From the NCBI RefSeq assembly GCF_008274585.1, contig NZ_VTRT01000001.1:496001-560000 (forward strand): a DNA stretch of 64,000 nucleotides. Direction: 5' to 3'. Shown here piece after piece: positions 46,262 to 50,736 of this stretch. The notes under the pieces are model-generated. The model did not search any database. It was not told the origin of the DNA and saw nothing but the letters and a program-made list of their open reading frames with translations. Numbering within the stretch: the first letter of the stretch is position 1; each line of letters opens with the position of its first letter. This stretch comes from Pedobacter sp. BS3 (GTDB lineage Bacteria; Bacteroidota; Bacteroidia; Sphingobacteriales; Sphingobacteriaceae). A program made the position numbers and the translations under genes.

Positions 46262-46747
46262 TTAAACATCCAGGTTATCCAGGCATATCTGGCGTTTGAT
46301 GCTTTCCTCCAGCGAGATAAACGTTTCGGTACGTTGTATGCCCTCTACGGCCTGTATCGAATCATTCAGCACGTGGCGCAGGTGATTAGTATCGCGGCAG
46401 ATGATTTTAGCAAACATACTGTAAGCACCGGTACAATAATGCAGCTCTACAATTTCGTTCACCTTTTTAAGCTGCTCTACCGCGTCTTTATATATAGAAC
46501 CCTTCTCCAGGAATATACCCAAAAAGGCGCATACATCGTAACCGATCTTTTGTGCATCGATAATCAGGTTTGAGCCTTTGATAATGCCCATATCCTGCAT
46601 TTTCTTCATCCTCACGTGTATGGTACCGCCCGAAACGATCAAGCGTTTGGCAATTTCAGTATAGGCAATGGTAGCATCCTCTAAAAGGAATGAAAGAATC
46701 TGCAAGTCCAGATTGTCAATTCCTAAATTTTGCAGCCGTTTTTCCAT
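46262..46747 (-). CDS. Lrp/AsnC family transcriptional regulator
   Basis: This 161-residue DNA-binding protein has an N-terminal helix-turn-helix (about 8-60, LDLQILSFLLEDATIAYTEI and GGTIHVRMKKMQDMGII) and a C-terminal RAM ligand-sensing domain (about 70-150, IGYDVCAFLGIFLEKGS, IVELHYCTGAYSMFAKIICR). Such proteins sense amino acids and act as feast/famine regulators. The gene is convergent with pdhB. Its target genes cannot be read from the sequence; a self-regulatory site was not found. Confidence 0.93.
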   Translation of the reverse strand: MEKRLQNLGIDNLDLQILSFLLEDATIAYTEIAKRLIVSGGTIHVRMKKMQDMGIIKGSNLIIDAQKIGYDVCAFLGIFLEKGSIYKDAVEQLKKVNEIVELHYCTGAYSMFAKIICRDTNHLRHVLNDSIQAVEGIQRTETFISLEESIKRQICLDNLDV

Positions 46748-46824
46748 GTATTTTTTAAATGCTTCTAATCGAAAGGCTAAGTAAATAAAAAATTAATAAA
46801 AATTAAAATATTTCATTAAAATAT

Positions 46825-46856
46825 TTGCAACGAATTAGATTTTTGCCGTACATTTG
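46825..46856 (+). promoter_or_regulatory. Promoter for the tRNA-like gene
   Basis: TTG (46825-46827), 21 nt, then TACATTTG (46849-46856) gives a complete Bacteroidota promoter. Transcription should start near 46863, about 44 bases before the tRNA-like fold. Confidence 0.6.
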
Positions 46857-46906: not shown

Positions 46907-47016
46907 TGTAGGGTGGTGGAACTGGCAGACACACCTCCTTGTCTCGGTGGCGGAGAATCTGGGAAATTCAGCAATGAACTAACCACTCCTTGAAGGTTCG
47001 ACTCCTTCCCCTACAG
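46907..47016 (+). tRNA. Class-II tRNA-like gene with GUC anticodon and very long variable arm
   Basis: Acceptor TGTAGGG (46907-46913) pairs perfectly with CCCTACA (47009-47015); the next base G47016 would be the discriminator, and no CCA is encoded. T8, A14 and G18-G19 are present in the D arm (GTG..CAC, 46916-46932), which resembles that of tRNA-Leu. The anticodon arm (46934-46950) has one T-T mismatch and the loop TTGTCTC, giving anticodon GTC. The T arm is GAAGG-TTCGACT-CCTTC. The variable region is 41 nt (46951-46991), against 10-23 in normal class-II tRNAs, and folds: GGAG/CTCC, TGG/CCA, then TTCA-GCAA-TGAA. It could be an active unusual tRNA, a specialised tRNA-like RNA, or a pseudogene. 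Confidence 0.6.
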
Positions 47017-47054
47017 CACCTTTCGTTTAATTTAGGTTTATAATTGGTTAGTTT

Positions 47055-47084
47055 GAGACGTTGCCCATCAACGTCTCTTTTTTT
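47055..47084 (+). terminator. Intrinsic terminator after the tRNA-like gene
   Basis: GAGACGTTG (47055-47063) pairs with CAACGTCTC (47069-47077), followed by seven T. It closes a transcript of about 220 bases from the promoter at 46825-46856. Confidence 0.88.
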
Positions 47085-47267: not shown

Positions 47268-47573
47268 ATGAAAGCAATTTCAGATTATGCATTGAATCCT
47301 ACATGCAAGACACCTAACATTGTCGGAAAGAGACTAACTGATAAATGGTTTGTCTACTTCTACTATTATGTTGATAGTAAAAGGTACTTATACCGCGAGT
47401 CCAGAGAGCTTAACATCAATGGGCAGTCCCTGGCCGAAAAGCGTAAGAAAGCAAATGATATCTATGATTACCTAGATTCTATGCTGAAAACCCATAGGTA
47501 TGATCATCAAACTAAATCCTTTCAATATGTCATAACAGAAGGCTCATTGATGGCAGACTTAATCGATCAATAA
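47268..47573 (+). CDS. N-terminal fragment of a site-specific integrase (truncated)
   Basis: This 101-residue frame looks like the N-terminal arm-binding part of a Bacteroidota tyrosine recombinase: LTDKWFVYFYYYVDSKRYLY followed by an ERR-like AEKRKKANDIYDYLDSMLK block. It then stops, with no core-binding or catalytic domain (no Arg, His or Tyr motifs), and none was found downstream. It lies just after a tRNA-like gene, the usual place for such integrases. I read it as the remnant of an integrated element. Confidence 0.5.
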   Translation: MKAISDYALNPTCKTPNIVGKRLTDKWFVYFYYYVDSKRYLYRESRELNINGQSLAEKRKKANDIYDYLDSMLKTHRYDHQTKSFQYVITEGSLMADLIDQ

Positions 47574-48410: not shown

Positions 48411-48749
48411 TTACTCTTCCAACAAAGCTTCTATCTCTGCTTTCAACACAGGGATATACCTTATAATAATACTCCATACCACATCATCAGATAAGGAATC
48501 ATAGCCGTGAATGATGCGGTTTCTGGCATCCACTATCTTACGAGAATTGCTGACCTCCACAGGAGTTGTATGTTTCAATATCCTGTTTATTGCCTCACCA
48601 ATAATTTCAATGTTGCGCTCAACAGCCCGCTTGGTACGTAAATCGTTCTGATAGTGGGCAATCTGTTTAGGGCAGTCTGCAAAGAAGCTTTCTATCTCCA
48701 CAATGGCATTCAGGATATCATAAAGCCAGGCTTTAACCTCATTGTCCAT
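48411..48749 (-). CDS. hepT: HepT-like (HEPN, DUF86) ribonuclease toxin
   Basis: This 112-residue all-helical HEPN protein is the likely toxin of an MntA/HepT module. The catalytic RX4HXY motif is intact: Arg76, His81 and Tyr83 in ARNRIIHGYD. HepT cuts RNA, and MntA silences it by AMPylating that tyrosine. The NIEIIGEAINRIL stretch is typical. I chose the ATG at 48749 (MDNEVKAW) over a TTG two codons upstream; it overlaps the mntA end by 11 bases. It lies in an AT-rich island downstream of a tRNA-like gene. Confidence 0.88.
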   Translation of the reverse strand: MDNEVKAWLYDILNAIVEIESFFADCPKQIAHYQNDLRTKRAVERNIEIIGEAINRILKHTTPVEVSNSRKIVDARNRIIHGYDSLSDDVVWSIIIRYIPVLKAEIEALLEE

Positions 48750-49041
48750 ACACAAGTTGCTTTTGCTGGTTTACAGCTTGTTTGAAGTAAGGGTTTTTAA
48801 TGGCTTTCTCTTCCAGCAGGTCAACAGGGCGTTGAAACATATCTTCTAATGAGAACTTGAAATCAAAGTAGTTATCCGCATAATCTTCTACCGCAACATT
48901 CGAGAAGTCAACAATCAGGTCTATATCGCTTTGATTGTTGTAGTTGTTGGTAAGCACAGAGCCAAAAGCATACAGGCTTTTAACCTTGTATTGCTTACAA
49001 AGTTTCTCAATATCTGCTATATAGCGCCTGAACCTGTCCAT
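48739..49041 (-). CDS. mntA: MntA-type nucleotidyltransferase antitoxin
   Basis: This 100-residue protein (from MDRFRRYIADIEKL, ATG at 49041) has the minimal nucleotidyltransferase motif: Gly27-Ser28 and Asp39, Asp41 in FGSVLTNNYNNQSDIDLIV. It would add AMP to Tyr83 of the HepT toxin coded right after it and so neutralise it. An upstream frame extends to 49104 but starts without support. It is the intact counterpart of the broken module at 41322-41960; the two antitoxins are clearly different proteins. Confidence 0.87.
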   Translation of the reverse strand: MDRFRRYIADIEKLCKQYKVKSLYAFGSVLTNNYNNQSDIDLIVDFSNVAVEDYADNYFDFKFSLEDMFQRPVDLLEEKAIKNPYFKQAVNQQKQLVYGQ

Positions 49042-49359
49042 TAACGTATAATTACATTCAAATTTATAAAATCTTTGCAAGATATCCGTATGCAAGCCAT
49101 ACAACCTATGCTACACCGCCCTTAAAACACCCCCTCCTCAAATTCATAAAAAAGCTGCTTATAATATATAGTAGTACTGCCCAACCCATTCTATTAGTAA
49201 ATAAAACTTTAACGTGAACTACAGTAACTAAGCTGCTTATCCACCTGTAAAAACGTTGTATGTGCTGTCCGGGAGCAGGAATGGCCGATATCAACCCCTC
49301 TCCGGATGTCGATGAAAAGTAAATAGTTATACAGCATTTATTCACTAAAAGTAATTACC

Positions 49360-50291: not shown

Positions 50292-50301
50292 TTCTATTAA
50301 G

Positions 50302-50375
50302 TAGCGGGGAGCAGGATCGAACTGCCGACCTTAGGGTTATGAATCCTACGCTCTAACCATCTGAGCTACCCCGCC
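50302..50375 (-). tRNA. tRNA-Met (CAT)
   Basis: A 74-nt tRNA on the minus strand: acceptor GGCGGGG with CCCCGCT (one G-U pair), D arm TAGCTCAGATGGTTAGAGC, anticodon loop TTCATAA (anticodon CAT), and T arm GGCAG-TTCGATC-CTGCT. No CCA is encoded. The layout is that of the elongator-type Met tRNA; a tRNA-Ile that reads AUA with a modified C34 cannot be excluded from the sequence. It is the only intact copy in an array of five. Confidence 0.93.
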
Positions 50376-50376
50376 A

Positions 50377-50736
50377 GGTAATATTTCAAATTATCAAGGA
50401 TTATTATTCCTCGTTAAACATACAGCGGATTCGAACTGCCGTCCGCCCTTTGGCGGATATGAATCCTACGCTCTAACCATCTGAGCTACCCCGCCAGGTA
50501 ATATTTCAAATTATCAAGGATTATTATTCCTCGTTAAACATACAGCGGATTCGAACTGCCGTCCGCCCTTTGGCGGATATGAATCCTACGCTCTAACCAT
50601 CTGAGCTACCCCGCCAGGTAATATTTCAAATTATCAAGGATTATTATTCCTCGTTAAACATACAGCGGATTCGAACTGCCGTCCGCCCTTTGGCGGATAT
50701 GAATCCTACGCTCTAACCATCTGAGCTACCCCGCCA
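50377..50736 (-). repeat. Three identical 120-bp tandem units, each a tRNA-Met-derived pseudogene
   Basis: Units at 50377-50496, 50497-50616 and 50617-50736 are identical. On the minus strand each starts GGCGGGGTAGCTCAGATGGT (5' half of tRNA-Met) and keeps the CAT anticodon region. Then comes the palindrome TCCGCCAAAGGGCGGA, a T-arm-like GGCAGTTCGAATCC and an unrelated tail with the hairpin AGGAATAATAATCCT. The 3' acceptor strand is missing, so no unit can form a tRNA. They lie between the promoter (50761-50791) and the intact tRNA-Met, so they should be transcribed as its leader. Confidence 0.9.

Follow-up and report, generated by a model that had tools for sequence, protein, structure and literature searches.

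A Conserved Class-II tRNA-like RNA Next to an AsnC-Type Regulator in Pedobacter sp. BS3 and Its Relatives: A Candidate Carrier for Asparagine Synthesis

The tRNA-like gene at positions 46907–47016 of the window, i.e., the whole stretch of 64,000 nucleotides that was analyzed, is a real member of a large conserved RNA family. Members of this family typically lie next to a divergent AsnC-type regulator, and among AsnC-bearing Sphingobacteriaceae genomes their presence is closely associated with that of GatB. This adjacency to asnC and the inheritance together with the amidating enzyme suggest that asparagine is made on a dedicated carrier RNA. With slightly better than even confidence, and judging from sequence comparisons, we propose an AsnC-controlled, non-decoding carrier RNA that would be charged with aspartate by AspRS, amidated by GatCAB, and thereby supply asparagine. 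The wider proposition, that an RNA gene replaces asparagine synthetase as a stable, reusable, non-decoding cofactor for turning Asp into Asn under AsnC feedback in several families of the phylum, has about even chances in our estimate. A literature search of openly accessible papers returned no earlier report of such an RNA.

Structure of the RNA Gene and Its Flanking Elements

A preliminary description of this DNA had recognized a 7-bp acceptor stem, a 5-bp T arm, a Leu-like D stem, the loop TTGTCTC, and G73, as well as a variable arm folding as GGAG/CTCC, TGG/CCA, and a GCAA-capped hairpin. These parts were described correctly; the conserved 3′ tail, the tandem arrays, and the link to GatB went unnoticed, as did the divergent AsnC-type regulator. 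The features of the locus are as follows:

46262–46747, minus strand: AsnC-type transcriptional regulator, divergent from the RNA (NCBIfam AsnC, Pfam Lrp/AsnC domains, conserved adjacency)
46824–46856, plus strand: Bacteroidetes-type promoter TTTG-N21-TAnnTTTG, with boxes TTTG at 46824–46827 and TAnnTTTG at 46849–46856; conserved AAATATTTGCAA upstream
46907–47016, plus strand: tRNA-like RNA with a class-II cloverleaf and G73, predicted Asp acceptor (sequence, homologues and alignments, covariation)
46907–46913, plus strand: 5′ half of the acceptor stem, UGUAGGG, pairing with 47009–47015 (7 bp), with invariant U1, G2, and U3; followed by T8-G9 in the sequence parse
46916–46932, plus strand: D arm with a 3-bp stem, tRNA-Leu-like (resembling tRNA-Leu(UAA) of the same genome); pairs 10-25 and 11-24 covary
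46934–46950, plus strand: anticodon arm CCUCC-UUGUCUC-GGUGG (loop statistics, stem covariation)
46939–46945, plus strand: anticodon loop TTGTCTC of the window copy, with GTC at 46941–46943, U37, and C38
46952–46989, plus strand: structured variable arm (GGAG/CUCC, UGG/CCA, internal loop, GCAA-capped hairpin)
46992–47008, plus strand: T arm, 5 bp, with a TTCGACT loop (alignment)
47016, plus strand: discriminator G73
47034–47051, plus strand: conserved 3′ tail AGGTTTATAATTGGTTAG, present in many homologues
47055–47084, plus strand: intrinsic terminator (47055–47077, then a T run)

The promoter and terminator had also been noted to flank the RNA, which agrees with our data: 119 of the 183 unique upstream regions carry a promoter of this type, compared to 0.3 in shuffled sequences, and the terminator is as listed. 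The conserved upstream AAATATTTGCAA is a possible AsnC operator, a candidate put forward from the sequence. The anticodon stem CCTCC/GGTGG of the window RNA contains a U29×U41 mismatch that is kept in the near family; distant relatives have full 5-bp anticodon stems without it. Regarding the individual parts, the D arm is near-identical to that of the genome's own tRNA-Leu(UAA), the genome's tRNA-Asp has G1 and the loop CTGTCAC, and its tRNA-Asn has U1. The RNA body is a chimera, with a D arm like that of tRNA-Leu(UAA), a loop like that of tRNA-Asp, and a first base pair like that of tRNA-Asn.

A Widespread RNA Family with a Covarying Fold

The search for homologues in Sphingobacteriaceae found the RNA conserved family-wide, with strong BLASTN matches in most of the family (100 relatives). 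A pattern scan of named genomes matched Pedobacter, Mucilaginibacter, Daejeonella, Arcticibacter, Hufsiella, Pelobium, and others. The RNA often occurs in 2–5 tandem copies, and side-by-side copies are common among the pattern-scan genomes; five copies lie 370–400 bp apart in one genome and five copies 150 bp apart in another. In total, 215 near copies were extracted, of which 149 are distinct, and a distant set comprised 45 sequences. Beyond Sphingobacteriaceae, a covariance model identified true members (68–104 bits, 110–193 nt) in several families of the same class, and also in one family of another class. Matches of 50–60 bits and 82–87 nt were recognized as ordinary class-II tRNAs and left out of the counts; as such tRNAs reach at most about 60 bits at 82–87 nt, the RNA family and the tRNAs are separate. 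None of the tRNA finders or Rfam models used detects the RNA: ARAGORN did not call the window copy, and Rfam, including its tRNA model, gave no match above the gathering score.

Folding of the window RNA as a lone sequence yielded no cloverleaf and a stability no better than that of shuffled sequences (z = −0.61). The case for the fold therefore rests on covariation among relatives, which supports the maintained fold proposed in the preliminary description. Covarying pairs were found in the acceptor stem, variable arm, and T stem of the near set, and acceptor pairs 4, 5, and 7 covary within the family. The variable-arm helix GGAG/CUCC shows compensatory changes, being also present as GAAG/CUUC, AGAG/CUCU, and GGGG/CCCC; the size of this arm ranges from 41 to 120 nt across the family. 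In the distant set, covariation extends to every helix, D and anticodon stems included, with 97.5% of cells paired, two-sided change in 27 of 30 pairs, and 0 of 500 shuffles scoring as high, although these counts are flattered by the alignment of this set to the model and by the three ordinary tRNA rows in it.

A tRNA-Leu pseudogene, or a remnant of a mobile-element integration site, would fit the recombinase-like stub 250 bp downstream and the related longer protein that borders an insertion within the RNA gene of another genome, G012. However, hundreds of intact homologues, the covariation, the conserved promoter, and the absence of the RNA from the phages, plasmids, and IMG/VR entries searched all speak against it. 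The covariation and the intact homologues refute it as the main explanation, so that it retains next to no probability; the element-damaged pseudogene considered earlier is excluded for the window copy by these homologues. The stub (47268–47573) is 101 aa long and 50% identical to the N-terminus of the recombinase-like protein in G012, where an insertion of ~29 kb (C10:326891-356098; L447, L448) splits the RNA gene. The RNA gene thus seems to be used for integration in the way that tRNA genes are.

A second paralogue, a 136–143-nt form, is present in Pedobacter-type genomes (L062, L074, L090, L097, L113, L130, and L139). The arm of this paralogue contains GGGTTGACCAC at most of these loci; this motif is also present in the long arms of RNAs from distant families, and the GGGTTGACCAC-bearing arm may be the ancestral one.

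Charging Determinants Are Conserved and Decoding Features Are Lost

U1-A72, G2-C71, U3-A70, and G73 are invariant in all 260 sequences (215 near and 45 distant). The anticodon loop reads NN-GUC-N-C, with U35, C36, and C38 in 260/260 and G34 in 257/260 sequences. Because the near set was retrieved with a pattern that included GUC and C38, only the distant set, collected with no loop pattern, tests these positions independently; there, U35, C36, and C38 are invariant and G34 is found in 42 of 45. Three distant copies (L242, L261, and L263) carry UUC or CUC (Glu-type) in place of GUC and keep the other invariant bases. The determinants of E. coli AspRS are G73, G2-C71, G10, GUC, and C38 (PMC6523644), and the same set is given for bacterial AspRS (PMC9976931). 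The window copy has all of them, including G10, a minor determinant that is not kept in distant families. GatCAB amidates Asp-tRNA-Asn owing to U1-A72, and rejects Asp-tRNA-Asp owing to G1-C72 and U20a (PMC9976931).

With ordinary tRNA-Asp, the RNA shares G34, U35, C36, C38, G73, and G2-C71, all invariant or nearly so; ordinary tRNA-Asp has G1-C72 and a class I variable loop, whereas all copies of the RNA have U1-A72 and a long arm. A tRNA-Leu has a Leu anticodon and A73, unlike the RNA with its GUC and G73, and the resemblance to tRNA-Leu is confined to the D arm. Decoding tRNAs have U33 and a purine at position 37. The RNA, in contrast, varies at position 33: most copies have U, but 13 of the 45 distant copies have A, C, or G, and 16 of the 215 near copies have C. 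At position 37, none of the 260 sequences has A; most have U or C, and some of the near copies have G.

The RNA probably does not read codons. A complete cloverleaf, the GUC anticodon, and the U33 of most copies would be compatible with an unusual decoding tRNA that inserts Asp, Leu, or Asn at some codons, but this is highly improbable given the loss of U33 in several lineages, the lack of A37, and the anticodon-stem mismatch of the near family. Moreover, the genome encodes an ordinary tRNA-Asp(GUC) and a separate ordinary tRNA-Asn(GUU), and an amidated form of the RNA would mistranslate Asp codons as Asn. There is strong support for the option first favored, a tRNA kept for a purpose other than ordinary Asp or Leu decoding: the family is conserved, the Asp identity bases are kept, the decoding bases are lost, and tRNA-Asp(GUC) is encoded elsewhere in the genome.

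Three further ideas were abandoned. The conserved C that follows G73 could have been a processing signal, but it is also present in the ordinary tRNAs shown from the same genome. The motif CACCUCCUU in the anticodon arm, which we take to equal the 16S anti-Shine-Dalgarno sequence, was set aside as a match of this kind, as it is absent in distant members. Queuosine modification as the cause of GUC conservation was dropped because U33 is not kept.

The Neighboring AsnC-Type Regulator

The window regulator matches the NCBIfam AsnC model (NF008384) with 174 bits, below the equivalog cut-off of 227, and the Lrp model with 52 bits. The same Lrp/AsnC-family regulator lies beside the RNA in 112 of ~120 near loci and is divergent in 110 of these 112. 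Among distant loci, an AsnC-type regulator is adjacent in 23 of 35 and divergent in all 23. No other gene, and no transferase gene in particular, recurs next to the RNA across the families of the near and distant loci. E. coli likewise has a divergent pair, asnC and asnA, with asnA under the control of AsnC. The present arrangement is similar in that an AsnC-type regulator is divergent from a gene predicted to make asparagine, but an RNA gene stands where E. coli has asparagine synthetase A.

Co-Inheritance with GatB and the Occurrence of Asparagine Synthetases

Among the 53 AsnC-bearing genomes of the family, GatB is found in 33 of 34 with an intact RNA and in 1 of 19 without (Fisher 5e-12, kinship not corrected for). 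Joint losses of RNA and GatB are spread over three distinct parts of the AsnC tree, some deeper forks of which have modest support: the g5 clade, G021 inside g21, and a clade of g3, g15, g16, g17, and g19. The g5 genomes have no GatB and neither AsnA nor AsnB above cut-off, and a decayed remnant of acceptor plus T arm is found at their asnC locus. G021 and the clade of g3, g15, g16, g17, and g19 have AsnB, and g16 genomes AsnA too. There are two exceptions: G026 has the RNA without GatB, and G012 has GatB with the broken RNA described above. Furthermore, GatB is present without the regulator or the RNA in four genera of the family (g8, g10, g23, and g24). Co-occurrence at the class level is uninformative, as GatB is common there without the RNA.

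AsnA was found in no RNA-bearing genome of the family, and no match above cut-off to either AsnA or AsnB was obtained in nine of the genomes with the RNA (G004, G018, G025, G028, G033, G045, G049, G057, and G061). The genome of the window contains GatB, and AspRS, LysRS, and AsnRS are its only class-IIb synthetases. In addition, two of its genes, with open frames of 607 and 622 aa, are AsnB-like and score above cut-off, so that this genome may be independent of the carrier-RNA route. For RNA-bearing G022, about 1.6 of 2.2 Mb (73% of the genome) were surveyed, revealing GlnRS, AsnRS, a single AspRS, GatA, and GatB, and no close relative of E. coli AsnB within these 73%. GlnRS has been reported in nearly all Bacteroidetes surveyed (PMC3927822). 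With both GlnRS and AsnRS present, neither tRNA-Gln nor tRNA-Asn is an evident substrate of GatCAB in G022, although a non-discriminating AspRS would change this. Non-discriminating enzymes have His at the position of the RDLG motif that is occupied by Leu in the host AspRS; we treat this as a lead only.

These distributions also bear on a different use of the RNA, in which the Asp- or Asn-charged form would serve a non-ribosomal transferase that tailors lipids, the cell wall, or proteins, as a donor and not as a source of free asparagine. Conserved charging and lost decoding features would be expected here alike, and the tandem arrays suggest high demand. We nevertheless consider such a donor quite unlikely: the AsnC-type regulator, and no transferase, is the widely shared neighbor, and both the joint loss with GatB and the nine RNA-bearing genomes without asparagine synthetases point to asparagine supply. 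A non-proteinogenic tRNA-Gly is used for cell-wall bridges in Staphylococcus. It is likewise a charged tRNA set aside from translation, as predicted for the RNA, but differs in amino acid, body, and pathway, and the RNA has no transferase neighbor.

A Proposed Carrier RNA for Asparagine Synthesis

For the carrier RNA we infer a sequence of charging, amidation, and release. AspRS would charge the RNA with aspartate via G73, G2-C71, GUC, and C38, and GatCAB, reading U1-A72, would amidate the bound Asp to Asn. The Asn-RNA would be kept off the ribosome because its anticodon arm is unsuited to decoding and its variable arm is oversized. Hydrolysis of the ester would then free asparagine, which AsnRS needs, and the AsnC-type regulator would tune transcription of the RNA to asparagine supply, as E. 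coli AsnC does for asnA. The loss of G10 in distant families, the three copies with UUC or CUC, G026, G012, and the four genera with GatB but no RNA count against this proposal, and AspRS and GatCAB would also have to accommodate a variable arm of 41–120 nt.

The closest known system is tRNA-dependent Asn synthesis by AspRS and GatCAB on tRNA-Asn, which operates in Deinococcus, Thermus, Bdellovibrio, and Staphylococcus aureus. The likeness lies in the predicted Asp charging and the amidation via U1-A72, and the need for GatCAB is matched by GatB in the genome of the window and by GatA in G022, the one genome searched for it. However, that system uses the cell's usual, decoding tRNA-Asn as carrier and depends on a non-discriminating AspRS, whereas the carrier proposed here is a separate class-II tRNA-like RNA that itself has the Asp anticodon. 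GatCAB alongside AsnRS and GlnRS has been reported in some genera without Asn synthetase, Bacteroidetes included (PMC4206432). Non-standard bodies with long variable arms are also known from allo-tRNAs and selC-like tRNA-Cys, and some allo-tRNAs have GUC (Mukai et al. 2017; PMC7609411). Allo-tRNAs are mostly Ser-type, with acceptor branches of 8/4 or 9/3, and the selC-like RNAs are Cys tRNAs (PMC7609411); the RNA described here differs from allo-tRNA and tRNA-Sec-like forms by its 7/5 branch, in which both stems are paired throughout, and by its Asp identity bases.

If the carrier proposal is true, a tRNA family would be maintained for metabolite production instead of translation, and the noted puzzle of GatCAB's job where AsnRS and GlnRS exist (PMC4206432) would be answered. 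Metabolic reconstruction would change as well, as RNA-bearing genomes would be mistaken for those of asparagine auxotrophs.

The 3′ Tail Module and Further Features of the Window

Exact copies of AGGTTTATAATTGGTTAG occur four times in the genome, at 47034–47051 of the window and at C21:677842, C24:231655, and C26:117942 (L347–L349); among the loci viewed, a terminator follows it at L346, L348, and L349. The C26 unit of promoter, tail, and terminator suggests a small-RNA family with one 3′ module. At L303–L305 and L307 (g3 and g15), the asnC locus has lost the tRNA part but kept the promoter, tail motif, and terminator, which makes continued production of an RNA probable. Several groups (Pedobacter-type and array copies) keep the tRNA part without the tail motif. 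The tail motif is a module separate from the tRNA part.

These observations relate to a regulatory RNA under AsnC, whose charging state would sense Asp/Asn or whose 3′ tail would pair with mRNAs. The conserved tail and terminator, common to other short loci of the genome, and the persistence of the tail where the tRNA part beside asnC has been lost argue for it. We regard it as unlikely, however, as copies without the tail keep the tRNA part, the invariant bases are charging determinants, and the loss together with GatB would be left unexplained.

Two other features of the window lie in the surroundings of the RNA. Three tandem repeats of ~120 bp (50424–50728) are located beside a tRNA-Met (50301–50375) and give weak, equal matches to tRNA models. 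A HepT/MntA-type toxin–antitoxin pair is encoded near the RNA at 48411–49104 on the minus strand.
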